Below are positions 39,348-64,000 of a stretch of DNA of 64,000 nt, one piece after another. Every line of letters begins with the position of its first letter. Within the stretch, counting starts at the first letter, position 1. This DNA is from Pseudomonas fluorescens. Lineage in GTDB: Bacteria; Pseudomonadota; Gammaproteobacteria; Pseudomonadales; Pseudomonadaceae. The stretch lies in NCBI RefSeq assembly GCF_902497855.1, contig NZ_CABVHU010000009.1, forward strand, positions 62,001-126,000. The letters run 5' to 3'. A program made the position numbers and the translations under genes. The notes under the pieces are model-generated. The model made no database searches and had not been told where the DNA came from. It saw only the letters and a program-made list of their open reading frames with translations.

Positions 39348-39359
39348 TCAGTGTACTGA
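39348..39359. promoter_or_regulatory. Operator-like near-palindrome TCAGTGTACTGA
   Basis: The 12-mer is symmetric except for its two centre bases. Copies are at 39460, 60472 and 60628. Confidence 0.5.
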
Positions 39360-39459: not shown

Positions 39460-39471
39460 TCAGTACACTGA
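39460..39471. promoter_or_regulatory. Operator-like near-palindrome TCAGTACACTGA
   Basis: This is the second site upstream of the AAHS transporter, 112 bases from the first. It is identical to the site at 60628-60639 before the dioxygenase genes. Confidence 0.55.
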
Positions 39472-45450: not shown

Positions 45451-45464
45451 GGTCATCGATCCGT

Positions 45465-45953: not shown

Positions 45954-46001
45954 GTCGCACTCCCTGGGTGTTACCGTCCGCCCTCTTGAGGTGCGGTTTT
46001 T

Positions 46002-46025
46002 TTTATTAAGTAACCACTACATGAA
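46002..46025. promoter_or_regulatory. Imperfect copy of the nicA operator palindrome
   Basis: Matches 20 of 24 bases of the site at 46146-46169, aligned on ACCACT. It lies 49-72 bases upstream of the nicA start. It is a likely NicS site by position; binding is inferred. Confidence 0.55.
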
Positions 46026-46145
46026 AAAGGCGTGACCGGGGCCGCGTGTGCGTACTGCGCAGATCGAGCGCAGTGCCATTGCGGGTTCCAGCGCTTGAAG
46101 AGGGGATGGCTACCCGACTCTTCACGTTACCCCTGACTACATTTT

Positions 46146-46169
46146 TTCATGAAGTGACCACTTCATGAA
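46146..46169. promoter_or_regulatory. 24-bp near-perfect palindrome upstream of nicA
   Basis: The arms TTCATGAAGTG and CACTTCATGAA are perfect inverted repeats around AC. It lies between the nicR stop and nicA. It is a candidate operator of the TetR regulator NicS. Confidence 0.65.
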
Positions 46170-46208
46170 TCAGAGGCAAGAAGAATGCCAGGGGCGGCTT
46201 GTCACTGG

Positions 46209-46673
46209 TTAATCGTCGGTGTCATCGATCATTTTGCGCAGCAAATACAGCATCGCGACGCGCTCGCCCGGGTTGAGGTTACCCATGGTCAGCTCGCTGA
46301 CGCGGGCGGCATGAGGCTCGGTGTCACGCACCAATTGATGGCCACTGTCGGACAGGCCAACGATGACTTTACGCCGATCTTGAGGGTCTGGTTCCAGGGT
46401 GATCAGGTCGCGTGCCTTGAGCCGCTCGACGATGCCTCGAATGGTCGCCTGATCCACCGCAGTGGCCTTGACCAGCTCGGTCAATGAGCTCGGCCCGCTG
46501 TCACGCACGGCGCACAGCGTGATGAACTGCACGGCGGTCAGCTGCGAATCGTCGATGTTCTGCTGGAAGATCGCCATATTGCGCTGGTAAGCCTTGCGCA
46601 GCAAATGACCGACCTGCTCGGAAAAGGCGTAGGGTGCGGTTGTCTGTGGGGTGTTGTCTGTCGTATCCGGCAC
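46209..46673 (-). CDS. nicR: MarR-family repressor NicR
   Basis: The roughly 154-residue MarR winged-helix protein has a recognition region around TELVKATAVDQATIRGIVERLKARDL (about 60-85) and a wing DPQDRRKVIVGLS. By position after nicX and by resemblance it is NicR, which represses nicX-nicR and nicCDEF operons until 6-hydroxynicotinate binds. An upstream TTG start (46688) lacks a ribosome-binding site. The GTG at 46673 has an AGAG in place and is preferred. It lies about 105 bases after the nicX stop. Confidence 0.87.
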   Translation of the reverse strand: MPDTTDNTPQTTAPYAFSEQVGHLLRKAYQRNMAIFQQNIDDSQLTAVQFITLCAVRDSGPSSLTELVKATAVDQATIRGIVERLKARDLITLEPDPQDRRKVIVGLSDSGHQLVRDTEPHAARVSELTMGNLNPGERVAMLYLLRKMIDDTDD

Positions 46674-46778
46674 GGCGGGCTCTATCAAAAAAAAGTAAGT
46701 GGCGTTTACATTAACCTGCGAGGGGGATCAAGGTAACTCAATCGTGGTGGGTCACTGTCCCGGCCCCCCTCTTTTATA

Positions 46779-47831
46779 TCACCGCGCGATAGAGGCCTGC
46801 GGCGCGACCACATCACCGCCCAGGACCACTGCCTGATCATCGAGGTAGATATCGCAATGGCGCAGCGGGATGTCCAGGTGACACGGGGTTTTCCGGGTAC
46901 CGCCCACCTCGGTATTGGGCCCGGTGGAGAACAGGAAGTTGCCGTAGAACGCCCGGGCATCCATGCACATGCCGTCGTTTTTGTCATGCAAGCCCATGGC
47001 GGTCCACTGCGCACGCGGTTGCAAACCCCAGCCGATATGAGAAATGCCGTACACCTCGGGGTCGTTGAAGTACTTCATGTAATCGCGCAGGTATTCGGCC
47101 TCGAAGCCACCATGGATCGAGGTGATGAAGCCCTTTTCGATTTCCAGGGTGATCTTCTCTCGCGAGTAATTCTTGAACGGCAACAGGATATCGCCGACGT
47201 CGATCACCAGTACGCCCTCGGCGGTTTCCTCGTTTGGCCAGGAGAATAGAAACCCGCTGGGCCAGTGATCCCAACGCCCCGGCTCATCGGCAAAACCGTA
47301 CTCGGCAACCGCAGGGTATTGCCCGAGCAACGCCTTGAAATCGCTGCCGGCCCTGGACTTCACGTGGATCGAGCGCGCCTGCTTCAGCAGCTTCTCGGCC
47401 GCCATCACCCGTTCTTTGTCCGCCAGCGTAGGCAGCATCCGCGCCAGCACTTCCGGTGGTTCGACCGCCAACAGTATGCGCGTCCCGGTCTTGAGGATCT
47501 GCTCCTGCTCCGGCGAGTGCAGCAACATCATGGTGTCGACCACCAGGTCCGCCGCTTCCAGCGCCCGTTGTGCGGCGATATTGCCGGTCAGCGCGGTGTC
47601 GCCGCAGTAAGCGGTCATGTCATTGCCCATGGCCATAGGGTGGTTGAACGACGGCAACTCGACCGCATAGACCTTGGCCCCAAGACGCTGCGCGGCGTCC
47701 ATGGCCGCCCGCACGGTACGCGAGTCGGAGTAGTGGCTTTTCAGCACTGCAACGCTTTGGGTCGAGTCCACTTTGGACAGTTTCAACACGTGTTCAAACA
47801 TCTGGGTCAGTTCGCAATCGCTTACCGGCAT
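46779..47831 (-). CDS. nicX: 2,5-dihydroxypyridine 5,6-dioxygenase
   Basis: The 350-residue non-heme Fe(II) ring-cleaving dioxygenase converts 2,5-dihydroxypyridine and O2 to N-formylmaleamate. Glu177, His318 and Asp320 (in CHLDIPL) are at the positions described for the iron ligands of P. putida NicX, and the length is the same. The start MPVSDCELTQ has AGAGGAAG upstream; an in-frame extension to 47894 lacks support. It is transcribed away from nicC, and nicR follows on the same strand. Confidence 0.93.
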   Translation of the reverse strand: MPVSDCELTQMFEHVLKLSKVDSTQSVAVLKSHYSDSRTVRAAMDAAQRLGAKVYAVELPSFNHPMAMGNDMTAYCGDTALTGNIAAQRALEAADLVVDTMMLLHSPEQEQILKTGTRILLAVEPPEVLARMLPTLADKERVMAAEKLLKQARSIHVKSRAGSDFKALLGQYPAVAEYGFADEPGRWDHWPSGFLFSWPNEETAEGVLVIDVGDILLPFKNYSREKITLEIEKGFITSIHGGFEAEYLRDYMKYFNDPEVYGISHIGWGLQPRAQWTAMGLHDKNDGMCMDARAFYGNFLFSTGPNTEVGGTRKTPCHLDIPLRHCDIYLDDQAVVLGGDVVAPQASIAR

Positions 47832-50140
<2,309 letters not shown>

Positions 50141-50170
50141 ATTCAACGCACGTTGCAAAGGAGACAGCTT

Positions 50171-50926
50171 GTGATCAAGCCATATCGTATCGGCCAAATT
50201 GTGCCAAGTTCCAACACCACCATGGAAACCGAGATCCCGGCGATGCTGGCAGCACGCCAATTGATCCGCCCCGAACGTTTCACCTTTCACTCCAGTCGCA
50301 TGCGCATGAAGCAGGTGCGCAAGGAAGAGCTGGCGGCAATGGATGGCGAATCCGATCGCTGCGCGGTCGAGCTGTCTGACGCCAAGGTCGACGTGCTGGG
50401 GTATGCCTGCCTGGTGGCGATCATGGCCATGGGCCTGGGTTATCACCGCCAGTCCGAGCAGCGACTGCGCAAGGCCACCGCCGACAACGACGCCAATGCG
50501 CCGGTCATCACCAGCGCCGGCGCCTTGATCGAAGGCTTGAAAGTCATGGGCGCCAAACGCATTGCCATTGTCGCGCCGTACATGAAGCCGCTGACCGAGC
50601 TGGTGGTGGATTACATTCGCGAAGAAGGTTTCGAGGTGGTGGACTGGCGCGCCCTGGAAATTCCCGACAACCTGGCCGTCGCCCGCCATGACCCGGCCAA
50701 CCTGCCCGCCATTGTGCGCGACATGAACCTTGAAGGCGTGGATGTGATCGTCCTGTCGGCCTGCGTGCAGATGCAATCGCTGGGCGTGGTCTCACAAGTC
50801 GAGGCCGAAACCGGCAAGCCGGTACTCACCGCCGCCATCGCCACCACCTACGCCATGCTCAAGGCATTGGACCTGGAGCCCATCGTTCCGGGTGCGGGCG
50901 CACTGCTGTCTGGCGCTTATAAATAG
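50171..50926 (+). CDS. nicE: Maleate cis-trans isomerase
   Basis: The 251-residue Asp/Glu-racemase-like isomerase converts maleate to fumarate. The two catalytic cysteines are Cys80 in GYACLVAIM and Cys198 in SACVQMQS. It starts at GTG 50171, with AAGGAG seven bases upstream; a slightly longer ATG-started frame at 50153 has no such site. It lies 30 bases after nicD and 9 bases before nicF. It delivers fumarate to the TCA cycle. Confidence 0.93.
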   Translation: MIKPYRIGQIVPSSNTTMETEIPAMLAARQLIRPERFTFHSSRMRMKQVRKEELAAMDGESDRCAVELSDAKVDVLGYACLVAIMAMGLGYHRQSEQRLRKATADNDANAPVITSAGALIEGLKVMGAKRIAIVAPYMKPLTELVVDYIREEGFEVVDWRALEIPDNLAVARHDPANLPAIVRDMNLEGVDVIVLSACVQMQSLGVVSQVEAETGKPVLTAAIATTYAMLKALDLEPIVPGAGALLSGAYK

Positions 50927-50935
50927 GAGCGTATC

Positions 50936-51568
50936 ATGAGCCAAGAACAAAGCGCCGACGCCAACTATCAGGGCGTGTGGGGCCAGCGCATCGGCTTTGG
51001 CAACAAGCCTGCGCTGCTGATGATCGATTTCATGCAGGGCTATACCCAAGAAGGCGCACCGCTGTACGCGCCAGGCGTGGTCAGCGCTGTCGCCGAGAGC
51101 GTCGAACTGTTGGCCTGCGCCCGCCAACATGAAATCCTGGTAGTGCATACCAACATTCGCTACCACCCAGGGCACTTTGCCGACGGCGGTATATGGGTCA
51201 AAAAAGCCCCCGTGATGAAAGACATGATCGAGGGCAACCCACTGGCAGCCTTCTGCGAGCCGGTGCTGCCCAACCCCGATGAAGTGGTGATCAGCAAGCA
51301 ATACGCCAGTTCGTTTTTCGGCACCAGCCTGGCGTCGATGTTGCACGCCCAAGGCATCGACACCGTGGTACTGGCGGGCTGCTCAACCAGTGGCTGTATT
51401 CGCGCGACGGCGGTGGATGCCGTGCAGCATGGATTCCGGACCATCGTTGTTCGCGAATGTGTCGGCGATCGACACCCCGCGCCACACGAAGCCAACCTGT
51501 TCGACATTGATAGCAAGTATGGCGATGTGGTGAGTAAACAGGAGGCCATGCAGCAGTTCAGGAAATGA
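50936..51568 (+). CDS. nicF: Maleamate amidohydrolase
   Basis: The 210-residue isochorismatase-like hydrolase deamidates maleamate to maleate and ammonia. The triad is Asp31 in LMIDFMQG, Lys121 in SKQYASSFFG and Cys154 in TSGCIRAT. It follows nicE by nine bases. Together with NicD and NicE it completes the lower nicotinate pathway. Confidence 0.93.
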   Translation: MSQEQSADANYQGVWGQRIGFGNKPALLMIDFMQGYTQEGAPLYAPGVVSAVAESVELLACARQHEILVVHTNIRYHPGHFADGGIWVKKAPVMKDMIEGNPLAAFCEPVLPNPDEVVISKQYASSFFGTSLASMLHAQGIDTVVLAGCSTSGCIRATAVDAVQHGFRTIVVRECVGDRHPAPHEANLFDIDSKYGDVVSKQEAMQQFRK

Positions 51569-51838
51569 GAGGGCCATTGGTTTTTCCGGGCTGGCACAGC
51601 GCCCTCCCGGGCAAGCCTGCAACCTCCACGGATTCACGCTTTTACCGAATACCGGCAGAAATGGATATCTGCCGTCGAACCAGGCCGTAGAGCACTGGTC
51701 GCCAAATACTGGGAAAGGGTCGACATCAAACCCTGCCCAGTCTTCTGACACTGCCTTTGGAAGCCGCCGACCGGTGCTGCCAAAGCATTGATCCGCGGCT
51801 AAACAACAATCACAAAGTCACCGCCAGGAGACACCCCG

Positions 51839-53155
51839 ATGCCCTCTGCAAATGTAAGTACACCCACTGCGGCCACCGTCGCAGACCCAGTCCAGGCGCT
51901 TTACCGCAAGATCACCTGGAAGCTTATTCCCTTCCTCTGCTTCTGCTATCTGGCCTCCTATCTGGACCGGATCAACGTCGGCTTCGCCAAACTGCAAATG
52001 CTCGAGCATCTGCAGTTCAGCGAAACCGCTTTCGGCCTGGGCGCCGGTCTGTTTTTCGTCGGCTATATCATTTTCGAGGTTCCGAGCAATCTGGTCCTGG
52101 AAAAAGTCGGGGCGAAGATCTGGATCGCCCGCATCATGATCACCTGGGGCCTGCTCTCGGCCTGCACCATGCTCGTCACTTCCACCACGCAGTTCTACAT
52201 CCTGCGCTTCCTGCTCGGCGCCGCCGAAGCGGGCTTTCTGCCGGGGGTGCTGTATTACCTGACCACCTGGTTCCCGACCTATCGCCGCGGCCGCATCATC
52301 GCCTTGTTCATGATCGGCCTGCCGTTGTCCAGCGTGCTCGGCGGCCCGCTGTCCGGCTGGATCATGGGGCATTTCGATAACGCTGGCGGCCTGCGCGGCT
52401 GGCAATGGCTGTTCCTCCTCGAAGCGATACCCAGCGTGTTGCTCGGTGTGCTGACCTTCTGGGCCTTGCCGAACAACTACCGCCAGGCCAAATGGCTCAA
52501 CGATGACGAGAAAAACCTGCTGGAACAGGAACTGCGCGCCGACGATGCCGACTCCACCGGCAGCAAGCACAGCTTTCGCGACGGTTTCTTCAACCTGAAG
52601 GTGTGGATGCTCGGCGGCATCGACTTCTCGATCCTGCTCAGCGCCTATGCCATGGGGTTCTGGATGCCGACCTTCATCCGCAACGCCGGCGTGGTCGATA
52701 CCTTCCACATCGGCGTGCTCACCGCGCTGCCGAGCATCGCCGCGTTGCTGGGCATGCTGTTGATCGGCGCCAGCTCCGACAAACACCGCGAACGCCGCTG
52801 GCACATCATCGTGCCCTTCCTGGTGGGCGCGGCAGCCATGGCCAGTGCGCCCTTCTTTGTCGACAACGTGGTGGCGACCGTGGCGCTGTTCGCTATTGCG
52901 TCGGCGGCGATCATCGGCGCGGTGCCGGTGTTCTTCAGCCTGCCGGCAACCTTTCTCAAAGGCACCGCGGCGGCCACCGGCTTCGCCCTCGCCTGCTCGG
53001 TGGCGAACATCGCCGGGCTGGTCAGCAACTCGCTGATGGGCGTGGCCATCGACGTCACCGGCAGCAGCGCCGGCGCGTTGTGGTTCTTCGCCGGCTGCCT
53101 GATTCTCAGCAGCTTCCTGGTGATCGCCCTGCCGGCCAAGCTGGTCAATCGCTGA
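51839..53155 (+). CDS. nicT: MFS transporter NicT
   Basis: The 438-residue ACS-family (anion:cation symporter) permease has twelve helices, with the start SYLDRINVGFAKLQM typical of that family. In P. putida NicT sits in the nicCDEFTP operon and is assigned to uptake of nicotinate or 6-hydroxynicotinate. Here it is 270 bases after nicF. CAGGAGAC precedes the ATG. No strong terminator is seen in that gap. Confidence 0.87.
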   Translation: MPSANVSTPTAATVADPVQALYRKITWKLIPFLCFCYLASYLDRINVGFAKLQMLEHLQFSETAFGLGAGLFFVGYIIFEVPSNLVLEKVGAKIWIARIMITWGLLSACTMLVTSTTQFYILRFLLGAAEAGFLPGVLYYLTTWFPTYRRGRIIALFMIGLPLSSVLGGPLSGWIMGHFDNAGGLRGWQWLFLLEAIPSVLLGVLTFWALPNNYRQAKWLNDDEKNLLEQELRADDADSTGSKHSFRDGFFNLKVWMLGGIDFSILLSAYAMGFWMPTFIRNAGVVDTFHIGVLTALPSIAALLGMLLIGASSDKHRERRWHIIVPFLVGAAAMASAPFFVDNVVATVALFAIASAAIIGAVPVFFSLPATFLKGTAAATGFALACSVANIAGLVSNSLMGVAIDVTGSSAGALWFFAGCLILSSFLVIALPAKLVNR

Positions 53156-53193
53156 GACACGTCAGCCAGGCGACTGCCTGTCCTGGTGTGAGT

Positions 53194-53224
53194 CGCAAGG
53201 GGATCTCATACAGCCCCCCTTGCG
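53194..53224. terminator. Weak hairpin between nicT and nicP
   Basis: CGCAAGGGG pairs with CCCCTTGCG around a 13-base loop. No T-tract follows, so it may attenuate rather than end transcription. Confidence 0.3.
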
Positions 53225-53362
53225 GCTGATGCCACCGACGCGGAGCAGCTCAAGCCAGGCCCGCGAGCCAACAGCCACCCCCATGTTCAAGCCCCCTCCT
53301 GCGGACAGGCCTCGACCTCGTCTGACGGGGGGCGCTTTGTCCTCATTCCAGAGATCACCAGC

Positions 53363-54655
53363 ATGCACACTCCTGCACTGCGCAAAGCCCATGCAATCAG
53401 CGGCACCCTCGGCGGCTGCCTGACGCTGGGCCTGGCCTCGCCACTGCTAGCCGAAGAAACCGGCTTCATCGAAGGCGCGACGGCCAACCTGCAACTGCGC
53501 AACTACTATTTTAGCCGCGACTTCTCCGACATCGTCGGCCCCAACAAGCAATCCAAGGCCGAGGAATGGGCCCAGGGCTTTATCCTCGATGTCCGTTCCG
53601 GCTACACCCAGGGCAGTATCGGTGTCGGCGTGGACGTGCTCGGCCTCTACGGCGTCAAGCTCGACAGCAGCCCGAGCCGGGCCAGGAGCGGACTGCTGCC
53701 GACACACGACGACGGCAAATCCGCCGATGAATACGGCCGCCTGGGTGCCGCAGTCAAGTTCAAGGCCTCCAGCACCGAGCTGAAGATTGGCGAATTGCGG
53801 CCCAACCTGCCGGTACTGGTGCACAGCGACCTGCGCCTGCTGCCGCCGACCTACCAGGGCGCCTCGCTGGTATCCAAAGAGTGGGCAGGCCTGACCATCA
53901 ACGCCGGCCAGTTGCACTCCACCAGCCTGCGCGACTCGACCAACACCCAGGACATGTATGCGCTGATCAACGACCCGATCAACCCGGCGCGTATCGCCAA
54001 GTTCACCAGTGACCGCTTCAACTACCTGGGCGCCGACTACAGCTTCAACTCGAACCGCACCAGCGTCGGCCTCTGGCAGGCGCAACTGGAGGACATCTAC
54101 CAGCAGCGCTACTACAGCTTCAAGCACGCCGAACCTGTGGGAGACTGGACACTCGGTGTCAGTCTCGGCTACTTCGACGCCAGCGACGACGGCCAGAGCA
54201 TCGCGGGCAAACTCGACAACCACGCACTGTCCAACCTGCTGTCCGCGAAACACGGCGGCCATACCTTCTACCTGGGCTACCAGCAGATCGGGGGCGACGA
54301 CGGCTTCATCCAGATCGGCGCCAACACCAATCCGCTTGGCAACACCCTGCCCACCTACGAGTTCGCCGCACCGGACGAACGCTCCTGGCAGGTGCGTCAC
54401 GACTACGACTTCGCCGCCCTCGGCATTCCCGGCCTGACCACCACCCTGCGCTACGTCACTGGGGATAACGTCAGCACTGGACAGGGTTTCGAAGGCAAGG
54501 ACTGGGAGCGCGACCTGGATATTGGCTACGTTGTCCAGAGTGGATCGCTGCGCGGAGTGGGCATCCGCATCCGCAACGTGACTGCACGCTCCAACTACCG
54601 TAGCGACATTGACGAGAACCGGCTGATCCTCAGCTATAACATCAGCCTTTTCTGA
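53363..54655 (+). CDS. nicP: OprD-family outer-membrane porin NicP
   Basis: The 430-residue protein has a signal sequence (cut near LLA-EE, residue 30). It has OprD-family features: [21 protein letters not shown] at the mature start, [22 protein letters not shown], and a C-terminal [10 protein letters not shown] ending in Phe. It should let nicotinate or a related acid cross the outer membrane. It lies at the end of the nic operon, convergent with the xdhC-like gene. Confidence 0.88.
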
Positions 54656-54676: not shown

Positions 54677-55858
54677 TCAGGCCGAGGGCACCGTCAGCGA
54701 CGGTGCCCAGGAGCCAGAGTGAGTCGCCTCAGTGGCTTCGTGGATGGTGGTTTTGCGGTGTTTCAGCATCCCGCCACTGCGTTTATTGAGGTAGGCCGTG
54801 ATCTCGCCAACAATGGCCAAGGCCACGCTCGCCGGGGTGTCGCCCCCCAAGTCCAGACCTGCTGGATAGTGAAGTCCAGGTAAAACCCCGGGCGCACCAA
54901 TCTCCTCAAGCAGTCGTTCGGTTCGCTCTCGCGGACCCAGCTGCCCGACATAGGCGGGTGAACAGTGCAAAACGTTTTCCAGCCAATGCCGATCCTGTCG
55001 AAAGCTATGGGTCATGACCACCACCGCGGCACCGTCGACCACACTGGACAAGTTAAACGGCTCGTTGATTGGCGCAACAATGACCTGGTGTGCCCCGGGG
55101 AACCGCTCCGGGCGTGCAAAATGCGCCCGCCCGTCCACCACCGTCACCTGCCAGTTCAGATCCCTGGCGAACCGCACCAATGGCTGTGCGTCATGACCTG
55201 CGCCAAAGATCACCAGTCGGCGCTGTGGCGCGAGGTATTCGAGAAAGACCTCGACTTCATCGGCGCCGCTTCCGTAAATCATCAACCGAGACTTCTTGCG
55301 CTCAAGCGTACTGTGCAAATCGCTGCGCAGGGTATGTTGAAGCGCTTGGCAGTGGATGCCCTCACAGGCGTTCATGAACGCGTTCAGGCCCATCCGGGCG
55401 CCGATTCGCACCCGGGATTTTCGGCCCGCCGCGATGACCGTCGCCAGGGCTGCCGGCTGACCGCTGGCTTTTACCCGTTGCAGCATGTCGAGCAACAGAC
55501 TCTGCTTGCCGGCTGCATGGCGCTCCAGCAGTACATGCACGGTACCGTTGCAGCCGAGGCCAAAGGTCAGCGCCGCGTCCTCGTCATCGGCCTCCTCATC
55601 TTCCTGGGCCGCCGTGCTGTAACGACGCACCACCGCCTCGCCGGACTCGGTCAACCACCAGGCCTTCCTGGCCAACTCCTGCTCCAGGCAACCGCCACTG
55701 ATGGTCCCGACCGTCCGACCATAGAGGGGTATCAGCATCCTGGCCCCGGGGCGCCGATAGGCCGAGCCATCGACCTTGACGACCGTGGCCAGGACCGTAT
55801 CGGTTTTTGCGCTGTTGGCGTGATCCAATGCATCGAGCAAGGCGTACAAATCAGACAT
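54677..55858 (-). CDS. XdhC/CoxI-family molybdenum enzyme maturation protein
   Basis: The 393-residue protein has an N-terminal XdhC_CoxI domain (about 15-80, with GSAYRRPGARMLI and GTISGGCLEQEL) and a C-terminal Rossmann-like XdhC domain (about 215-355, VIFGAGHDAQPLVRFA). Such proteins sulfurate or insert the Mo cofactor of xanthine-dehydrogenase-type enzymes. It is the last gene of the Mo-hydroxylase operon and most likely serves CoxL here. A GGGCACCGTC/GACGGTGCCC hairpin (54686-54708) lies inside its last codons. Confidence 0.87.
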   Translation of the reverse strand: MSDLYALLDALDHANSAKTDTVLATVVKVDGSAYRRPGARMLIPLYGRTVGTISGGCLEQELARKAWWLTESGEAVVRRYSTAAQEDEEADDEDAALTFGLGCNGTVHVLLERHAAGKQSLLLDMLQRVKASGQPAALATVIAAGRKSRVRIGARMGLNAFMNACEGIHCQALQHTLRSDLHSTLERKKSRLMIYGSGADEVEVFLEYLAPQRRLVIFGAGHDAQPLVRFARDLNWQVTVVDGRAHFARPERFPGAHQVIVAPINEPFNLSSVVDGAAVVVMTHSFRQDRHWLENVLHCSPAYVGQLGPRERTERLLEEIGAPGVLPGLHYPAGLDLGGDTPASVALAIVGEITAYLNKRSGGMLKHRKTTIHEATEATHSGSWAPSLTVPSA

Positions 55859-55888
55859 GGCCGCAAACCCTTGCAGGGGTCACATTGT

Positions 55889-57085
55889 TCATCGACCGAA
55901 CCACCCTTTGATGCGATTCCAGATGATGCTCATCCCCAAGGCAAAGACGTTCAACCTGGCCGGTTCGGTCGACGGTTTCGCATCAGGATCCATACGCCGT
56001 TCCACGTTGCGACCGAAGTCGAGAATCATCCGGGCCACGAAGTCCTTCACCAGGCCAGAGCGCGAGAATTGCGCCAAAGGCCCTTGCAGCGAGTAGAGCA
56101 TTTCCACTTCAACCAGCGTGGCCCCGGCGTTATCGGACAACACCCGGTAGGTGATCTCGCCATTGGCACGGGATTGACTGATGGTGTCTTGACCGCCCCC
56201 CTTGAGCATGCCCGAACGCTGTTCTTCGTTACGCGTCAAACGTGCCGCACCCGCGAAGTTGGCCGCCATCGGGCCAAACTTGATCGCAATGAAACCCTTG
56301 ACTCGCTCGCCGTCGTTTTCTTCCAGGTTGGCACCCGGAAGGCAGCCGGCAACGGCTTCCAGATCGGCCATGAACGCCCAGACCTGTTCTGGCGGATACG
56401 CCACGCTGAAGCGTCCATCCATCCGGGTCCCGCCCTTGATGCCGGCGGGTGCACGCTCGCTCGAGGCTTCTGCCGCAGGGCCGGCGGAAGGCTCGACTGC
56501 AGCGGCCTGCGCACTGTGCTCCACGGCAAAGGAAGCCAATGGCCCGCTATTGGCTGGCATCGCCACGCCATGGCCCGCCAGGGCCTGTGCACGTGCAGCC
56601 TCGATCACTGGATCCGGCTGTTTACGCAGCTGCTCAAGGACGCTGCGAATGGCCGCGACTATGCCCATGTAGCCGGTACAGCGACAGATGTTGCCTGACA
56701 GCTCGACACGAATTTGATGCTCATCGGCATTGGGCAGGCGCAGCACAATGTCGCGGGCAGTGGTCAACATACCCGGCGTGCAGTAACCACATTGCAAGGC
56801 ATGGTGCTCAGAGAACGCCTCACGCAGGAGTGCCATTACCGGGTCTTGCTCAAAGCCCTCGACAGTCGTCACCTGCCGGCCTTCACACGCCACCGCGAAC
56901 GTCGTGCACGAACGTACCGGCTGGCCGTCGAGCAATACGGTGCAGGCACCGCACACGCCATGTTCGCAGCCCAGGTGAGTGCCGGTAAAGCGGCCTTCCT
57001 CGCGAACGAAGTCGCCCAAGTGCATTCTCGGCGCGACTTCACGCTCGAGCAGATTGCCGTTGACGTTAATACGTACAGAAGTCAT
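55889..57085 (-). CDS. CoxS-CoxG fusion: [2Fe-2S] subunit with C-terminal SRPBCC domain
   Basis: The 398-residue protein is two modules. The first (about 1-160) is the iron-sulfur subunit of a Mo hydroxylase. Clusters lie in GCEHGVCGACTVLLDG and in QCGYCTPGM plus ICRCTGY. After a Pro/Ala-rich linker (about 165-215), the second (about 220-370) is a CoxG/PF06240 domain, beginning MDGRFSVAYPPEQVWAFMADL. A hydrophobic tail follows (about 380-395). CoxG is usually separate and is linked to membrane docking of CO dehydrogenase. The ATG overlaps the FAD-subunit stop (ATGA). Confidence 0.87.
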   Translation of the reverse strand: MTSVRINVNGNLLEREVAPRMHLGDFVREEGRFTGTHLGCEHGVCGACTVLLDGQPVRSCTTFAVACEGRQVTTVEGFEQDPVMALLREAFSEHHALQCGYCTPGMLTTARDIVLRLPNADEHQIRVELSGNICRCTGYMGIVAAIRSVLEQLRKQPDPVIEAARAQALAGHGVAMPANSGPLASFAVEHSAQAAAVEPSAGPAAEASSERAPAGIKGGTRMDGRFSVAYPPEQVWAFMADLEAVAGCLPGANLEENDGERVKGFIAIKFGPMAANFAGAARLTRNEEQRSGMLKGGGQDTISQSRANGEITYRVLSDNAGATLVEVEMLYSLQGPLAQFSRSGLVKDFVARMILDFGRNVERRMDPDAKPSTEPARLNVFALGMSIIWNRIKGWFGR

Positions 57086-57924
57086 ACCCGAGGTTCCTTG
57101 AAGATCGAATCGAGACACCGGCGCAGGGCGGTGAGGCTTTGTTGTCGGTCTACTGCGTCTTTACCGGGTGTCACGCTTGCCACGGCTTTTACCAGCGCGG
57201 CAGGTTCAAGTGCTGCCGCCCCCTGACGGGCGACCGCTACCGATAACTCCCCCAGCAATAAAGGCGGGCCATCGAGTGCACCGAGGACAATCCTGGCCAG
57301 GCCACGATCCGGATCGAACACCGCCGAGCAACTGGCTTCGGCGAACTCACCGGTTTTTCGGCAAAGCTTGTGATAACCCCAGGCCGCACGTGGCCCCAGG
57401 CGCGGAATGCGCAGCCCGGTAATCAGCTCGTCTTCAGCCAGCACAGTGGTATAGGCACCGAGCATGAACTCGGCCATGCTCAAGCGACGCTGTCCCCGAA
57501 CGCTGCGCAACTCCACTTCGGCGCCCAGGGTAAATGCCACCAATACCCAGTCAGCCGCCGGGTCCGCATGGGCCAGGCTGCCTGCGAGGGTTCCGCGATT
57601 GCGAATAGCCCGGTAGGCGATCTGTGGCGCGACTTCGGCGAGCAAGGTCCCACGCAGTGCGGCGAACACGCCATCTTCAATCTGCGAGTGGGTAATCGCG
57701 CCGCCGACCAGCAGCCACTCTCCGTCCTCGCTCACCTGTTGCATCTCGGTGAACCCGCTGACGTCCACCACCTGGTTCGGACGCGCCAGACGCAGGTTGA
57801 GCATGGGGCCCAGCGACTGGCTGCCGCCCATGACCTTGACGATACCCGCGGACTGATCGGCCAGTGCCTGTAGCCCGGCCGACAGGTTTTCGGGGCGTAG
57901 ATAGTCGAACGCAACGGCTTTCAT
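57082..57924 (-). CDS. FAD-binding (CoxM-like) subunit of Mo hydroxylase
   Basis: The 280-residue FAD subunit has VMGGSQSLGPMLNLRLA and the TLAGSLAHADPAADW FAD-contact segments. It oxidises the iron-sulfur subunit and passes electrons onward. Both ends overlap its neighbours by four bases, which indicates tight translational coupling and 1:1:1 assembly. Confidence 0.91.
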   Translation of the reverse strand: MKAVAFDYLRPENLSAGLQALADQSAGIVKVMGGSQSLGPMLNLRLARPNQVVDVSGFTEMQQVSEDGEWLLVGGAITHSQIEDGVFAALRGTLLAEVAPQIAYRAIRNRGTLAGSLAHADPAADWVLVAFTLGAEVELRSVRGQRRLSMAEFMLGAYTTVLAEDELITGLRIPRLGPRAAWGYHKLCRKTGEFAEASCSAVFDPDRGLARIVLGALDGPPLLLGELSVAVARQGAAALEPAALVKAVASVTPGKDAVDRQQSLTALRRCLDSIFKEPRV

Positions 57925-60305
57925 GCGGCCACCTCTTGCTTGTTGTTTTCTGCCCGGGCGTCGGCCAGCGCCTGTAGCAGCCGACGCGGAGTCAATGGGG
58001 TTTCGGCGACTTCAACGCCAAGCTCGGCGAGGGCATCGTTGACCGCATTGAAGATCGCGGCGGGCGGAGCGATGGCTCCGCCCTCCCCCATGCCTTTGGC
58101 GCCAAATTCGGTATGGGGCGACGGCGTCTCCATGTGGTGAATGCGCAAGGCGGGCACTTCGGTCGGGCCTGGCAAAATGTAGTCCGCCAGCGTCGAAGCC
58201 AATGGCTGGCCATTGACGTCATAGGGCGTTTCTTCGTACATGGCAGTGCCGATACCCTGAGCAATCCCGCCATAGGTCTGCCCTTCGACCAACATCGGGT
58301 TGATCATCGTGCCGCAGTCCTCGACCACCACGTAGTCAAGGATTTCGATCTCGCCACTCTCGGTGTCGACGGCAACCAGCACCGCATGGGTGGCGTAGGT
58401 AAAGGCACCGGTATCGACGGCGGGCTTGAAGCCCGTGGTGACTTCCAGCCCGCCAGGGTGGACGTCAGCCGGTAGCGTGTGGGGCCTGATGTACCAGGCC
58501 GCGCCCACGTCATCCAGCGACACCGAGGCTTGATCGCACACCACCCTGGCGCCTTGCAGCTTGACCTCTGAGTCGGGCACACCCAGCAAAAAGGCGCCGA
58601 TATGGGTCAGGCGCGGCAACAACTCGCGGCAAGCGCGGGCGATGGCTCCGCCCGCCATGACCATCGACCGCGACGCGTAGGTACCGGTAGAGAATGGTGT
58701 CTGACCCGTATCGCCATGCAGCACCTTGATCCGGGCAATATCGATCCCCAGGACCTCGTGGGCCACCTGGGCAAAAGACGTTTCCATGCCCTGACCGTGG
58801 GAATGCACCCCGACCCGTACTTCAAGACCGCCGTCCGGCGTCATACGCACAGTCGCCTGCTCGTGGCCGGGTATGACTGGCGTCCCCCAGGTCGCGAACA
58901 CCGAAGTGCCGTGGGCTGACTGCTCGGTGTAGGTCGCGTAGCCAAGACCGATACGGCGACCGTCCGCTTCACCCAGACGCTGGCGCTCACGAATCGCCGA
59001 CGCACCGATCAGCTCGGCCGCCTTGCGCAGGCTGGCCGGATAATCACCGCTGTCGAGATGCTTGTTGGCGACGTTGATGAAGGGCATTTGCTCAGGACGC
59101 ACCAGGTTCTCCAGGCGCACGTCCAGGGGATCGCGCCCGACGGCTCGGGCCACCGCATCCATGGTCAGCTCCATGGCGAAGCAGACACCGGTGCGAGCCA
59201 CCCCGCGGTAAGGGACGAAGCCTGGTTTGTTGGTTGCCACGCATTCGGTGACGCAGCGGTAACCCTGAAACGCATAGGGGCCTGGCAAATTGCCAACCGC
59301 CTGGCCCGGCTCCAGACCGATTGTGAACGGCCAGACCGAATACGCACCGCCATCGATGACGATTTTGGCATCGAGCGCCAACACCCGCCCCTGAGCATCC
59401 GCATGCGCGGTCATGACATATTCATGCTCGCGACTATTGGCCCCCGCCGTGAGGTGCTCCCGGCGATCTTCGATAAAACGGAACGGTTGCTTGTAAGTCA
59501 TGGCCAGCCAGGCGATGCAGAGCTCTTCCTGCTGCAACACGCATTTGTAGCCAAAGGCACCGCCGACATCCGGCGAGATAACCCGCACCTGCCCCTGATC
59601 CAGCTTCAGACACTGGGCCAGGATGGTACGAATCATATGCGGCACCTGGGTGGCCGTAATGACGATCAGCTGGTCCAGGCTGTGATCCCAGTAAGCCAGA
59701 ACCGCTTTGCCTTCCATCGGCACCATGCATTGCCGTGCCAGCTTCATTCGGCGCGTGACCGTCACGCTGGCGGCCGCCGCATGCTCACTGAATGCCTTGT
59801 CGGCATGCAGGGTGACGAAGCGGTTGTCGTGCCAATGGTCATGGATGAAGTCACCTGTAGCGGCGACGCTACTGGCAGCATCGGCATACACCGGCAAGTC
59901 TTCGTAATCGACCATCACCTGCTCGACCAGGTCTTCGGCCTCGGCACGGGTCGGCGCACAGGTCATGACCACCGGCTCACCGACGAAACGCACTTTGCCA
60001 CTGGCCAGCGGCGGCTGGACAGAAGGTTGGTACGTGGGGAGCGTCGAATCGGCCACGATGTCGCTGGCACTGTGCATGTCGGCACGCACGAATACCTGGC
60101 CCCGCAAGGCTGGCGGCACGTCGATCGAGGTGATCAGGGCATGGGCCAGAGGGCTGCGCAGAAAGGCCACTTCCCGAAGCCCTGGCATATGGTAGTCCGC
60201 CACAAACTTGCCCCGACCGTGCAGGTGCCGTTCATCTTCCTTGCGCCGGACTCGGGCACCCACGCCCTGACCCGATTTGCCAGGGTACTCATTCGCTTCG
60301 CTCAT
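57921..60305 (-). CDS. Molybdopterin-binding (CoxL-like) large subunit
   Basis: The 794-residue Mo subunit has VGGAFGYKC near residue 250, SREHEYVMTAHAD, and the catalytic Glu in GAKGMGEGGAIAPP near the C-terminus. It lacks the AYRCSFR loop of true form-I CO dehydrogenase, so it is probably an aldehyde or N-heteroaromatic hydroxylase. Substrate is unknown. Its ATG overlaps the stop of a 37-codon frame upstream. It is divergent from the Rieske dioxygenase genes. Confidence 0.91.
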   Translation of the reverse strand: MSEANEYPGKSGQGVGARVRRKEDERHLHGRGKFVADYHMPGLREVAFLRSPLAHALITSIDVPPALRGQVFVRADMHSASDIVADSTLPTYQPSVQPPLASGKVRFVGEPVVMTCAPTRAEAEDLVEQVMVDYEDLPVYADAASSVAATGDFIHDHWHDNRFVTLHADKAFSEHAAAASVTVTRRMKLARQCMVPMEGKAVLAYWDHSLDQLIVITATQVPHMIRTILAQCLKLDQGQVRVISPDVGGAFGYKCVLQQEELCIAWLAMTYKQPFRFIEDRREHLTAGANSREHEYVMTAHADAQGRVLALDAKIVIDGGAYSVWPFTIGLEPGQAVGNLPGPYAFQGYRCVTECVATNKPGFVPYRGVARTGVCFAMELTMDAVARAVGRDPLDVRLENLVRPEQMPFINVANKHLDSGDYPASLRKAAELIGASAIRERQRLGEADGRRIGLGYATYTEQSAHGTSVFATWGTPVIPGHEQATVRMTPDGGLEVRVGVHSHGQGMETSFAQVAHEVLGIDIARIKVLHGDTGQTPFSTGTYASRSMVMAGGAIARACRELLPRLTHIGAFLLGVPDSEVKLQGARVVCDQASVSLDDVGAAWYIRPHTLPADVHPGGLEVTTGFKPAVDTGAFTYATHAVLVAVDTESGEIEILDYVVVEDCGTMINPMLVEGQTYGGIAQGIGTAMYEETPYDVNGQPLASTLADYILPGPTEVPALRIHHMETPSPHTEFGAKGMGEGGAIAPPAAIFNAVNDALAELGVEVAETPLTPRRLLQALADARAENNKQEVAA

Positions 60306-60415
60306 ACCTTATGGACTCCTGAGTTTCCGATGTTCAATCGGGCGGCATGCGCCATTTGATGACAGAGGCCCTGACACTCGGCACCCATGGTTTTCAGGAA
60401 ACGGCGAAGCTGCAT
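60302..60415 (-). CDS. Possible 37-aa coupled leader peptide before coxL-like gene
   Basis: The frame starts at ATG 60415 with AAAGGA nine bases upstream. It ends in a TGA that overlaps the large-subunit ATG (ATGA). The product is basic, with two Cys (MQLRRFLKTMGAECQGLCHQ start). The context argues for real translation and coupling. No family is recognised. Confidence 0.45.
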   Translation of the reverse strand: MQLRRFLKTMGAECQGLCHQMAHAARLNIGNSGVHKV

Positions 60416-60471
60416 GATCAGTGTCCTTTAAGGCTGTTTTTTTATGTTCGTCAGCTAACGTATGAATTTAA

Positions 60472-60483
60472 TCAGTACACTTA
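60472..60483. promoter_or_regulatory. Operator-like site TCAGTACACTTA facing the Mo-hydroxylase operon
   Basis: One mismatch from the 60628 copy. It lies 57 bases upstream of the 37-codon leader. Confidence 0.45.
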
Positions 60484-60627
60484 CATAATAATCATCCCTT
60501 CAGCTACGTCAACGACTAGCCGCTAAAAATTCACAGGAACGGGTTTTCTTCCTTTCCACCCAACAGACACGAATGATTTTCACTTCTTGAAATACCAATC
60601 AAGCGCTCAAAATGTTTGACATATTCG

Positions 60628-60639
60628 TCAGTACACTGA
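60628..60639. promoter_or_regulatory. Operator-like site TCAGTACACTGA facing the dioxygenase operon
   Basis: Identical to 39460-39471. It lies 36 bases upstream of the ferredoxin ATG, a position suited to repression. Confidence 0.55.
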
Positions 60640-60675
60640 ATATTATTTGTGGGCATACTGACAAAGGCAAACCTA

Positions 60676-60984
60676 ATGAGCTGGATAAAAATAACAACGG
60701 TGGACGTCCTTCAGGACGACCAGGTAATGGCCTTCAAATTACCCGAAGCGCACCTGGCGCTGTATCGCTGCGATGGGGAGTTTTTTGCCACGGACAACAT
60801 CTGCACCCACCAGCATGCCTTGCTCTCGGAGGGCTATCTGGAGGACGGCTGCATCGAATGCCCGCTGCATCAGGCGACATTCGATGTACGCACCGGCGCG
60901 GCCCAATGCGCGCCCGCCACCGAACCCCTGAAAACCTACGCCGTAAAGGTCGAAGGTGACGCCGTACTCGTGAACCTGGGTTAA
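60676..60984 (+). CDS. Rieske ferredoxin component of aromatic dioxygenase
   Basis: The 102-residue Rieske ferredoxin has ligands C-T-H in [12 protein letters not shown] (about residue 42) and C-P-L-H in [11 protein letters not shown] (about residue 61). It shuttles electrons from the reductase to the oxygenase. It resembles AndAb-type ferredoxins. ATG 60676 has AAAGG nine bases upstream; a GTG at 60649 is possible. It is the first gene of the plus-strand operon, four bases before the reductase. Confidence 0.9.
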
Positions 60985-60988
60985 CGCC

Positions 60989-62281
60989 ATGACCATTGAA
61001 CGCATTCTTATCATCGGGGCCGGCCAATGCGGCGCCATGGCTGCCGCCTCATTACGCCAGCGTGGTTTCAGCGGACGGATCGTGCTGGTTGGCCGAGAGT
61101 CTCACCCGCCCTACGAGCGCCCCCCATTGTCCAAATCGGTGCTCACAGAGTGCTCGCAAACGGTCAGTGGCCTGCACAAGACAGACTTCTATCGCGAGCA
61201 TGAGATCGAACTGCGCCTGGGGACCGCCGTCCAGTCACTGGAGCCGATCAAACGTACGGCCTTGTTGGACGACGGTACCTTGATCGAGTGGGATCGTTGC
61301 CTGTTGGCGACCGGTGGACAGCCGCGCGTGCTGGAAAAATTCCCGCGGACAATGGCCGATGTCCATTATCTGAGAACGGCCGATGACGCCTTCAAACTGC
61401 GCCAGACCCTCCAGGCGTCTCAAGGTCGCCTGCTAATTGTCGGCGCCGGCTTCCTTGGCCTCGAGGTCGCATCAACCGCCCGCTCTCTGGGGGTCGAGGT
61501 GACTCAGCTGGAAGCCGGGGAGCATCTGCTCAAACGGGCACTGCCCAGCGATATCTCGATCTGGCTGGCCGGGCGCGTGCGTGACTATGGCGTGGACTTG
61601 CGCCTGGCAACCAGCATCGACCGGCAGCACCCTGGTGAGCCAGGCACCTACCGCTTGAGCGACGGTACCGACATTACGCCGGGCACTGTTCTGGTCGCCG
61701 CCGGCATGCAACCCGAGACCACGCTGGCCAAAGCCATTGGCCTGGCATTAGCCGCCGACGGCGGCATTGCCGTCGATCCCCAATGCGCTACCAGCATTCC
61801 CGGTATCTATGCCGCAGGTGACTGTGCCACCCAGCGGGTCGCTCACTGCGGTCAACCCATGCGCCTCGAGTCCTGGCAGTACGCCAACGAGCAGGCACGC
61901 ATCGCAGCGGCCGCCATGCTGGGCGTGGACGATAGCCCTACCCCGCTGCCCTGGTTCTGGAGCGATCAATTCGATTGCAACCTGCAGATGCTCGGGTTGC
62001 CCGAGCCTGGCCTGACCTATGTCCAACGCACCCTGAGCACATCTGCCGAGGCCCCGAAATGGGTGAGCCTTGGTCTGCGCAACGGCCAACTCAGGCATGT
62101 GGTGTGCGCCAACGCCGGCGGCGAATTACGTCCGCTCAAAAGCCTCATGGAGGCGGGTGTCCCGTGCTCGGCAGCAGCACTGGCAGACATCAACCAGCCG
62201 CTGCGGCAGCTGGAAAAACAATTCAGGGCTTCGATCCAGCCCACTTCTTCCGCCCCTTCTCAGGAGCCGCTCCATGTATAA
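60989..62281 (+). CDS. FAD-dependent ferredoxin reductase
   Basis: The 430-residue protein has the FAD motif IIGAGQCGAMAAASLR at the N-terminus, an NAD motif IVGAGFLGLEVAS near residue 150, and the YAAGDCA FAD segment. It has the build of AndAa/BphA4-type oxygenase reductases. It passes electrons from NAD(P)H to the Rieske ferredoxin. Its stop overlaps the alpha-subunit start by eight bases. Confidence 0.9.
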   Translation: MTIERILIIGAGQCGAMAAASLRQRGFSGRIVLVGRESHPPYERPPLSKSVLTECSQTVSGLHKTDFYREHEIELRLGTAVQSLEPIKRTALLDDGTLIEWDRCLLATGGQPRVLEKFPRTMADVHYLRTADDAFKLRQTLQASQGRLLIVGAGFLGLEVASTARSLGVEVTQLEAGEHLLKRALPSDISIWLAGRVRDYGVDLRLATSIDRQHPGEPGTYRLSDGTDITPGTVLVAAGMQPETTLAKAIGLALAADGGIAVDPQCATSIPGIYAAGDCATQRVAHCGQPMRLESWQYANEQARIAAAAMLGVDDSPTPLPWFWSDQFDCNLQMLGLPEPGLTYVQRTLSTSAEAPKWVSLGLRNGQLRHVVCANAGGELRPLKSLMEAGVPCSAAALADINQPLRQLEKQFRASIQPTSSAPSQEPLHV

Positions 62282-63563
62282 CTCGCAAGATGTCATTGCC
62301 CGCACCGGGGGCAACAAAGACCTGGCCCTGGCCGACTGCATATGGCCAAACGATGACCTTCACTACATCCCCGACTGGGTCTACACCAGTCATGCCGTCT
62401 ATGATCGTGAAGTTGAACGAATCTTCCACGGCCGCACCTGGAACTTCGTCGCACTGGAAGCCGAGATCCCCAACACCGGTGACTACAAACGCTCCTTTGT
62501 CGGCCCGACCCCGGTGGTGGTTGCACGGGCAGAAGACGGCTCGGTCAATGTCTTCGAGAACCGTTGCGCACACCGCGGCGCGGAGTTCTGCCGACACAGC
62601 CAGGGCAATGCCAAAGAGTTCGTCTGCCCGTACCATCAGTGGTCCTACGACCTCAAGGGCAACCTGCAGGGCGTGCCTTTCAAGCGCGGCGTGAATCGCC
62701 AGGGCGGCATGCCCAAGGATTTTCGCAACGAAGACCACGGCCTGAAAAAGCTCCACGTCACCACCTGGAACGGTGTCGTCTTCGCCTCCTACCACGCCGA
62801 TGTCGAACCGATCGAAGAGTACCTGACCCCGCAAATCATCGAAGACATGGGCAAGGTCTTCGATGGCCGCAAACTCAAAGTGCTCGGTTACTACCGCAAT
62901 GAGTTGCCCTGCAACTGGAAGATGTACCACGAAAACCTGAAGGACCCTTACCACGCCACCTTGCTGCATTCGTTCCTGGTGGTCTTCGGCCTGCTGGTGG
63001 CCGGCAACAAGTCCGCCATGATTGCCGACCCGGTGCACGGTCGTCACGGCACCATGGCCTCGGCCAAGAGTGAAGACAAGTACGCGCAAGTCAGCGACGC
63101 CAACAAGGCAGAAATGCGCTCCTACCATGAAGGCATGCGCCTGCTCGACGATCGCTTCCTCGACTACATCAAGGAAACCGACTCGCCATGGTCGGTGACC
63201 ATGCAGACCATCTGGCCGAACCTGATCGTGCAACGGGAAATGAACACCTTGGGCGTACGGCAGATCGTCCCCAACGGCCCGAACAGCATGATCATGCAAT
63301 GGACCATGTTCGGCTATGAAGGCGACACCGAGGAAATGACGCAACATCGCTTGCGCCAAGGCAACCTGATGGGCCCTGCCGGATTCCTCGGCCTGGAAGA
63401 CAATGAAGCGATGAAGTACGTCCAGGAAGGCCTGCGCCGCTCCAGCAGCGACTTCAACATCCTCAAGCTTGACCACGGCCAGGTGGGTACCACCAACTCC
63501 CTTATTTCAGAAGCCGCAATCCGCGCCCTTTACCGCCACTACCGCGAAATCATGGAGCTGTAA
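62274..63563 (+). CDS. Aromatic ring-hydroxylating dioxygenase alpha subunit (AndAc/NagG-like)
   Basis: The 429-residue oxygenase component has a Rieske centre C-A-H in NRCAHRGAEFC and C-P-Y-H in VCPYHQWSYDLKG (about 84-107). The mononuclear-iron site lies in ENLKDPYHATLLHSF. Sequence and length resemble anthranilate 1,2-dioxygenase and salicylate 5-hydroxylase large subunits, so the substrate is probably an aromatic carboxylate. The start MYNSQDV has CAGGAG eight bases upstream; a frame open from 62070 overlaps the reductase and is not used. Confidence 0.92.
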   Translation: MYNSQDVIARTGGNKDLALADCIWPNDDLHYIPDWVYTSHAVYDREVERIFHGRTWNFVALEAEIPNTGDYKRSFVGPTPVVVARAEDGSVNVFENRCAHRGAEFCRHSQGNAKEFVCPYHQWSYDLKGNLQGVPFKRGVNRQGGMPKDFRNEDHGLKKLHVTTWNGVVFASYHADVEPIEEYLTPQIIEDMGKVFDGRKLKVLGYYRNELPCNWKMYHENLKDPYHATLLHSFLVVFGLLVAGNKSAMIADPVHGRHGTMASAKSEDKYAQVSDANKAEMRSYHEGMRLLDDRFLDYIKETDSPWSVTMQTIWPNLIVQREMNTLGVRQIVPNGPNSMIMQWTMFGYEGDTEEMTQHRLRQGNLMGPAGFLGLEDNEAMKYVQEGLRRSSSDFNILKLDHGQVGTTNSLISEAAIRALYRHYREIMEL

Positions 63564-64000
63564 TGAACGCCTTTGCCAACGAACTGAACCGCCCCTACCC
63601 GCTCTACCAACCCTGCCGGCTCGACCGGGCCACGGCCCTGCGCCTGCGACTGGAGATCGAGACCTTCAATGCCGACTACTGTGCCGTGCTGGACGATGGC
63701 CTGATCGAGCAGTGGCCGGATTTCTTCACCCACGATGCCCTGTACCGTGTGACCTCAAGGGAAAACGCCGAGCTGAACATGCCCGTCGGCCTGATCTACG
63801 CCCAGGGCCGCAACATGATGCATGACCGCGCGGTGGCCATCTCTCGCACGCAAATGTTCGCCCCACGCTACAACCTGCACCTGATCGGCAATACCCGCGT
63901 GATCGATGAGTCGAGCGACGGAATTATTACCGCCCAAGCCAACTTCATGCTGCTGCAGACACTGGTGGAAGGCCCGACAACGACTCATATGGCCGGCACC
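63563..64000 (+). CDS. Aromatic ring-hydroxylating dioxygenase beta subunit (cut by window end)
   Basis: The first 146 residues are visible. The protein has the cystatin/SnoaL-like beta-subunit start, with LRLEIETFNADYCAVLDDGLIEQWPDFFTHDALYRV-type layout (about 26-62). The ATG overlaps the alpha-subunit TAA by one base (TAATG). It forms the alpha3-beta3 oxygenase with the preceding gene. The C-terminal end is outside the window. Confidence 0.9.
   Translation, partial: MNAFANELNRPYPLYQPCRLDRATALRLRLEIETFNADYCAVLDDGLIEQWPDFFTHDALYRVTSRENAELNMPVGLIYAQGRNMMHDRAVAISRTQMFAPRYNLHLIGNTRVIDESSDGIITAQANFMLLQTLVEGPTTTHMAGT

Follow-up and report, generated by a model that had tools for sequence, protein, structure and literature searches.

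Which pathway is served by a molybdenum hydroxylase operon that diverges from the genes of a Rieske-type ring hydroxylase is the question raised by a locus of Pseudomonas fluorescens at the end of the window, by which we mean the whole stretch of 64,000 nucleotides analysed (assembly GCF_902497855.1, contig NZ_CABVHU010000009.1). A sequence-only reading of this locus had held that no characterised pathway had this pairing and that the substrate was unknown. Comparison with other loci makes us highly confident that it is a pic cluster for the catabolism of picolinic acid (pyridine-2-carboxylate). On the same comparison the window holds the upper half of the cluster, with the first two enzymes PicA and PicB; its end falls inside picB, and the host contig carries the rest of the locus.

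The pathway has already been described, and the locus is a further example of the known pic cluster, its pathway not an orphan. According to the available parts of the sources, the pic cluster of Alcaligenes faecalis JQ135 and Bordetella bronchiseptica RB50 has both operons and a known substrate (PMC10142695, PMC9060491), picA1A2A3 clustering with picB1B2B3B4, and picolinate is converted by PicA to 6-hydroxypicolinate, by PicB to 3,6-dihydroxypicolinate and by PicC to 2,5-dihydroxypyridine, which is then handled by PicD-G (PMC10142695). In this analysis the assignment draws on gene content, orthology, conserved catalytic residues and a shared palindrome, the reactions being those of papers on other strains, and picolinate is the well-supported candidate substrate in this host. 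Departures from other pic loci are modest, namely an adjoining complete nicotinate (nic) cluster, an XdhC gene, a 37-amino-acid open reading frame (ORF) before picA, and rarity in the genus. An apparently orphan pathway is thereby assigned to picolinate.

The picA and picB operons

All the genes named by the sequence-only reading are intact ORFs where it had placed them, and Pfam domains support each. The picA operon, on the minus strand, and the picB operon, on the plus strand, consist of the following (window coordinates).

54677..55858, minus strand: XdhC-family molybdenum cofactor maturation protein, last gene of the picA operon (XdhC_C and XdhC_CoxI)
55889..57085, minus strand: predicted PicA [2Fe-2S] subunit fused to a CoxG domain, 398 aa (Fer2, Fer2_2, COXG)
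57082..57924, minus strand: predicted PicA flavin adenine dinucleotide (FAD) subunit, CoxM-like (FAD_binding_5)
57921..60305, minus strand: predicted PicA molybdenum subunit (PicA_L), CoxL-like, the large chain of picolinate 6-hydroxylase (MoCoBD_1/2)
60302..60415, minus strand: 37-aa ORF, candidate translational coupler, its stop overlapping the CoxL start as ATGA
60676..60984, plus strand: predicted PicB ferredoxin (Rieske domain; ATG at 60676, start set from the sequence)
60989..62281, plus strand: predicted PicB ferredoxin reductase (Pyr_redox_2, Reductase_C)
62274..63563, plus strand: predicted PicB oxygenase alpha (Ring_hydroxyl_A, Rieske; start at 62274 refined from the sequence)
63563..64000, plus strand: predicted PicB oxygenase beta (Ring_hydroxyl_B), truncated where the window stops; complete, it would reach 64105

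The best solved relative of the CoxL-like chain is quinoline 2-oxidoreductase (1t3q), which hydroxylates the position beside the ring nitrogen, and this kinship fits the need for hydroxylation at C6 of picolinate. The chain has GMGEGG, and PYRGVAR stands where AYxCSFR would be; the earlier observation that the large subunit lacks the CO-dehydrogenase loop is thus confirmed. An aerobic CO dehydrogenase (form I CoxL) was rejected on the absence of AYxCSFR and on NCBIfam scores below cut-off. The start of the CoxS-CoxG protein was set from the sequence at the ATG at 57085 in preference to the GTG at 57118.

We assign the Rieske enzyme, from its sequence relatives, as a probable 6-hydroxypicolinate 3-monooxygenase PicB, a mono-oxygenase of the salicylate-5-hydroxylase type. 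NagG is the best solved relative of its alpha subunit (413 bits), and residues C99, H101, C119, H122, D225, H228, H233, D377 and R330 are invariant in 43 of 43 aligned rows, the Rieske and mononuclear-iron ligands among them, D377 being the presumed iron-binding acid and R330 aligning with the carboxylate-binding Arg of NagG (alignment to 7c8z). In the available part of PMC9060491 the hydroxypicolinate 3-monooxygenase alpha subunit is grouped with NagG and TphA2, with the carboxylate-binding Arg conserved, and the product of salicylate 5-hydroxylase is gentisate. The chemistry matches, since C3 of 6-hydroxypicolinate is para to its hydroxyl group, as in gentisate formation. The sequence-only reading expected ring dioxygenation, but in the published pathway 6-hydroxypicolinate is hydroxylated once (PMC10142695). 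The other expectations of that reading, that the molybdenum and Rieske enzymes serve one pathway, that the substrate is an N-heteroaromatic acid and that molybdenum-dependent hydroxylation comes first, are borne out as far as sequence comparison can carry them.

Two genes of the picA operon have a narrow distribution. XdhC has an 88% orthologue at the equivalent place in G330, a second genome of the genus, and none at >=40% identity in the 39 other pic loci surveyed below. The 37-aa ORF, preceded by the ribosome-site-like AAAGGA, is 81% identical in G330 and was seen only in the host and G330; its sole Pfam match is below cut-off (E 0.096). It had been read as a possible leader peptide: the ORF exists, and a conserved leader was rejected, as nothing alike was seen by eye before picA in 28 other loci (up to three longest small ORFs per locus).

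The lower pathway beyond the window

Because the window (contig positions 62001-126000) ends within picB, the 17 kb from contig position 125000 onward were examined next. Past the window the beta subunit is completed and is followed on the minus strand by picR, picF, picD, picE, picG and picC, so named by position and similarity. The picR gene, between picB and picF, is of the MarR family; picF encodes an isochorismatase-type amidase, picE an alpha/beta hydrolase and picG a protein of arylmalonate-decarboxylase/racemase fold. The picD product is NicX-like, with no Pfam match yet 56% identity to NicX of the adjoining nic cluster, and the picC product is an amidohydrolase (PF04909) whose solved relatives are of decarboxylase type, including gamma-resorcylate decarboxylase. 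PicD-G are mostly 52-82% identical to their counterparts in the pic loci holding them (a few have PicF or PicD at 40-43%), and the order picF-D-E-G-C equals that of Bordetella sp. BOR01.

Distribution and phylogeny of the pic clade

Relatives of the alpha subunit were surveyed as the best 80 of at least 593 confirmed, which fell into 39 loci at 63-81% identity (the pic clade) and 41 further loci at <=48%. Flanks of <=10 kb of the 39 loci, scanned at >=60% cover with identity thresholds, held PicA_L in 24, PicC in 24, PicE in 20, PicF in 17, PicD in 16, PicG in 15 and MarR in 26; these counts are lower bounds because several loci are cut. No PicA subunit, PicC, PicD-G or reductase was found in the flanks of the 41 loci (E 1e-5), one MarR match of 30% and one XdhC match of 27% being seen. 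In loci L053-L092 (alpha <=48%) the ferredoxin gene often lies downstream of the oxygenase genes, not upstream. A Variovorax plasmid locus carries both operons beside an amidohydrolase gene and a gene annotated as 2,5-dihydroxypyridine 5,6-dioxygenase.

A search of 398 genomes of the genus gave 7 with a match to alpha at the 1e-100 level or better; the pic clade is confined to two of the 398, the host and G330 (98%), the other five matches being 40-43% identical. A tree was built from 46 rows, namely the 39 loci of the clade, the window, G330 and 5 loci taken from the 41 of the outgroup. Support of 100/100 separates the pic clade from these five outgroup rows, and the host and G330 are nested in a set of 20 rows that is otherwise betaproteobacterial (support 97/93), the nearest loci of the window being from Achromobacter and Cupriavidus. 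This nesting suggests horizontal acquisition, and the pic cluster is extended to a rare gammaproteobacterial lineage with pic and nic side by side. Mirror-tree correlations, comparing the distances of PicA, PicB and PicC over 17 loci plus the window (r 0.78-0.94), were not used, as shared ancestry alone can give them.

A shared palindrome and the candidate regulator

The promoters of picA (with one mismatch), picB and picC share a palindrome, TCAGT-RY-ACTGA, which also occurs ahead of an MFS gene in the window. Its sites there (unstranded) are as follows.

39348..39359 and 39460..39471: two operator-like palindromes, both ahead of the MFS gene
60472..60483: operator-like palindrome with 1 mismatch, just downstream of the promoter-like site for picA
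60628..60639: operator-like palindrome TCAGTACACTGA, in the spacer of the picB promoter-like site, touching the -10-like hexamer

With <=2 mismatches TCAGTACACTGA occurs 8 times in the window (2.1 expected; 0/100 shuffles reach 8), a number inflated by counting on both strands and including a two-mismatch match at 52443 inside the nicT ORF; no exact copy lies inside the nic cluster. Two further sites lie upstream of picC, and the count in the 17-kb piece was reached by 2/200 shuffles. In the whole 7.4-Mb genome TCAGTRYACTGA is found at 6 places, 5 of them in the 30-kb stretch that holds the pic and MFS sites, as against 1 for the reversed control pattern; the sixth copy, on contig C14, falls within an ORF resembling an ABC permease and was put down to chance. 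Three promoter-like sites were found (0.7 expected), and the position of the picB site in the promoter spacer and of the picA site just after the promoter is a placement as for a repressor site. In G330 equivalent sites precede picA (one mismatch), picB, picC and the MFS gene.

Across loci, the 42 pic loci (866 kb) contain 21 exact copies of TCAGTNNACTGA, and the 41 outgroup loci (798 kb) contain none. Allowing <=1 mismatch, 13 of 35 loci have a site <=300 bp ahead of the gene for the picB ferredoxin; the same holds for picC in 12 of 28 loci and for the MarR gene in 11 of 30. What speaks against the palindrome as an operator is that 4 of 35 loci have a near-match within the ferredoxin gene of picB itself, in its first 300 bp, and some of these starts may be mis-set.

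The same palindrome at picA, picB, picC and the MFS gene indicates that these operons are probably co-regulated, so the unrelated signals once considered for the two operons find no echo at their promoters. The regulator is most likely the MarR protein PicR, a candidate repressor of picA, picB, picC and the MFS gene; the title of the paper on the JQ135 protein calls PicR a MarR repressor. The shared palindrome is a directly testable candidate PicR operator.

Comparison with Alcaligenes faecalis AU14

Against A. faecalis AU14, the L, M and SG subunits of PicA have 64, 49 and 55% identity over 97-99% of each subunit, and the ferredoxin, reductase, alpha and beta of PicB have 50, 44, 78 and 64%, the reductase being least conserved; picA and picB share the divergent layout with the host. 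PicC of AU14 is 63% identical, and beside it lie a MarR gene (51% over 88%, against the host MarR) and a partial PicE match (67% over 80%). Two Bordetella loci compared with AU14 likewise have the reductase lowest, at 45% identity, with the other proteins at 54-81%. In the part of PMC10142695 available, each Pic protein of RB50 has 60-80% similarity to that of JQ135, with PicB2 as the exception at 47%; PicB2 is probably the reductase, and the agreement is rough because the Bordetella-AU14 ferredoxin and FAD subunit (54-57%) are below the reported range.

Several results weigh against the assignment to a pic cluster. The reference used for PicA and PicB, AU14, is of the same species as JQ135 and another strain. 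Its genes are dispersed, with picA/picB at ~4.1 Mb, PicC at ~1.6 Mb, PicD at ~4.19 Mb and PicF at ~2.78 Mb; the PicD match at 4.19 Mb covers residues 101-346 only, and PicD, PicF and PicG were not found in the 19 kb around PicC. This dispersal makes AU14 good evidence for the PicA-PicB pair and not for one compact cluster. Further, 15 of the 39 clade loci show no PicA_L and 15 no PicC; some are cut by the ends of their stretches and others may serve other substrates. The exact palindrome is present in 13 of the 42 pic loci and absent from 29, and none of 27 loci has a site with <=1 mismatch in the 300 bp preceding picA_L, where another gene often ends just before picA.

The scattered lower-pathway matches of AU14 lie at L104 and G398:C1:2777269, 4186057 and 4195092, and the PicD pieces are residues 101-346 in one place and residues 1-123 ~9 kb away.

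Proposed pathway and alternative explanations

We propose that PicA (CoxL/CoxM/CoxS-CoxG, matured by XdhC) would hydroxylate picolinate beside the ring nitrogen to 6-hydroxypicolinate, its electrons perhaps passing to the membrane quinone pool via the fused CoxG domain; that PicB (ferredoxin, reductase, alpha and beta) would add one hydroxyl group onto C3, para to the first, to give 3,6-dihydroxypicolinate; that PicC would decarboxylate this to 2,5-dihydroxypyridine; and that PicD, PicE, PicF and PicG would carry 2,5-dihydroxypyridine to fumarate. PicR would repress picA, picB, picC and the MFS gene through the common palindrome.

The locus might instead encode a pathway for another pyridine or N-heteroaromatic carboxylate, such as a substituted picolinate, that converges on 2,5-dihydroxypyridine through pic homologues of shifted specificity. 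The identities to A. faecalis (44-78%) fall short of near-identity, sequence alone cannot give specificity, and the clade spans alpha-, beta- and gammaproteobacteria at 63-81% alpha identity. We nevertheless regard this as improbable: PicC and the whole 2,5-dihydroxypyridine set are co-located in the host, the window falls among betaproteobacterial pic loci nearest to those of Achromobacter and Cupriavidus, and PicC of RB50, 75% similar to that of JQ135, is reported in the accessible text of PMC10142695 to be active on 3,6-dihydroxypicolinate.

The picolinate assignment also has to be set against two readings that separate the operons. An AndA-type anthranilate dioxygenase beside an unrelated molybdenum hydroxylase is suggested by the AndAa-AndAd models, which rank near the top of the NCBIfam matches for each of the four Rieske components, but every score is below the curated cut-off (alpha 437.7 of 750 bits, reductase 303.6 of 650, ferredoxin 119.5 of 150, beta 114.8 of 230), the genomic partners are PicA, PicC and PicD-G, and the tree splits the pic clade from the outgroup rows; we consider it extremely unlikely. 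We give as little credence to an extra nicotinate hydroxylase serving the adjoining nic cluster, an idea that owes its appeal to the molybdenum hydroxylase operon adjoining nicP (window 54655/54677). A NicAB-type enzyme is already part of the nic cluster, 24 of the 39 clade loci have PicA_L close to picB, no NicC above 31% identity was seen in the flanks of the 42 loci, G330 has a pic cluster without a NicC orthologue (best 35%), and the palindrome ties picA to picB and picC, not to nic.

The fused CoxG domain

The COXG domain is present in 26 of 26 aligned PicA iron-sulfur proteins. Their selection required >=60% cover of the fused query, so that an unfused form would have been dropped; the clade loci with PicA_L and without such a match, L026, L040 and L047, are all cut by a stretch end. 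The CoxG part resembles the CoxG chain 8uds_D (E 4e-15). In the parts of the sources available, CoxG is proposed as an electron carrier to quinones (PMC13240472), or alternatively as a membrane anchor without an electron-transfer role, including for 3-hydroxypyridine dehydrogenase (PMC11962113). PicA may thus be linked to the membrane or to quinone, and as a tentative suggestion, held with more doubt than conviction, it could be a membrane-tethered picolinate:quinone oxidoreductase with a built-in CoxG, the counterpart of the separate CoxG proposed as the link between CO dehydrogenase and quinones. If so, the first picolinate step would feed respiration directly and the second would consume NADH and O2. 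We rate the quinone reading lower because of the weak amphipathicity of the tail and the selection of the 26 proteins. An amphipathic C-terminal anchor on CoxS-CoxG was rejected, the hydrophobic moment of the last 18 residues being 0.22 as against 0.46 for the best stretch of the protein. The fused domain offers a testable electron route for picolinate dehydrogenase.

Neighbouring MFS gene and nic cluster

Left of the picA operon, the window contains the following.

39707..41047, plus strand: MFS transporter (MFS_1), candidate picolinate permease of the palindrome regulon, with two exact palindromes upstream
41881..54655, unstranded: complete nic cluster (nicB, nicA, nicR, nicX, nicC, nicD, nicE, nicF, nicT, nicP, named by position and similarity)

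The MFS gene has a 90% orthologue near picA in G330, also with two palindrome copies upstream. In G330 a gene for a MobA-like NTP-transferase (L103:12995-13654) and the MFS gene face each other with the two palindromes between them; the former is a possible molybdenum cofactor gene of the regulon, and no close counterpart of it was found in the host genome (best 32%). Immediately to the left of the host's two MFS palindromes, an array of a 128-bp unit (window 38655-39258; x4.7, 98% matches) resembles Pseudomonas-type REP repeats, and a TetR-family regulator lies at 41150-41887, between the MFS gene and the nic cluster.

The NicAB-type enzyme lies at window 41881-45953, and NicC is closest to 6-hydroxynicotinate 3-monooxygenase 5eow (708 bits). 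The host carries two complete, diverged 2,5-dihydroxypyridine gene sets, nic and pic, ~13 kb apart (window 46779-51568 and L012:1950-5214), with identities of 56% for PicD/NicX, 61% for PicE/NicD, 82% for PicG/NicE and 38% for PicF/NicF. Since the pic cluster of G330, which includes XdhC and the 37-aa ORF, occurs in a genome with no NicC orthologue, pic can stand alone and nic is an independent neighbour. No nic cluster was seen in the flanks of the 42 other loci (E 1e-30, cover >50%), where the matches were NicA-like at 42-46% in L023, L029, L040 and L049 and NicC-like at 31% in L038. A Bradyrhizobium pic locus (L037:504-1148) has a NicA-like (59%) and NicB-like (36% over 60%) pair near its edge, possibly a second molybdenum hydroxylase.

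Comparison with known systems

The Pseudomonas nic cluster shares with pic the lower pathway from 2,5-dihydroxypyridine, its upper steps being those of NicAB, with cytochrome domains, and the flavin mono-oxygenase NicC. The pic cluster of A. faecalis JQ135, known to us through citing papers, was reportedly described by Qiu et al. (2019, J Bacteriol e00077-19). The available part of PMC10142695 does not use the word Rieske, and the Rieske class of the alpha subunit comes from PMC9060491, which cites the JQ135 paper. NagGH and the aryl-carboxylate Rieske oxygenases TphA2, AndAc and AhdA1c belong to the same alpha subgroup as PicB (PMC9060491, as far as available) and differ from it in substrate and operon partners.

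According to the available part of PMC10142695, the JQ135 pic cluster and the host locus are alike in the three-subunit PicA, the four-component PicB, PicC, the 2,5-dihydroxypyridine lower path and the MarR regulator, whereas picG of JQ135 lies apart from the cluster and the host has picA, picB, picR and picF-D-E-G-C together. Unlike that of JQ135, the host picA operon ends with XdhC and starts with the 37-aa ORF, and the MFS gene is separated by the nic cluster. B. bronchiseptica RB50 resembles the host in having picG between picC and picE, with picA and picB clustered, and it is also reported to degrade nicotinate, with a second 2,5-dihydroxypyridine gene set; RB50 reportedly has two nearly identical picGEDF copies (PMC10142695), whereas in the host the pic and nic copies have diverged.

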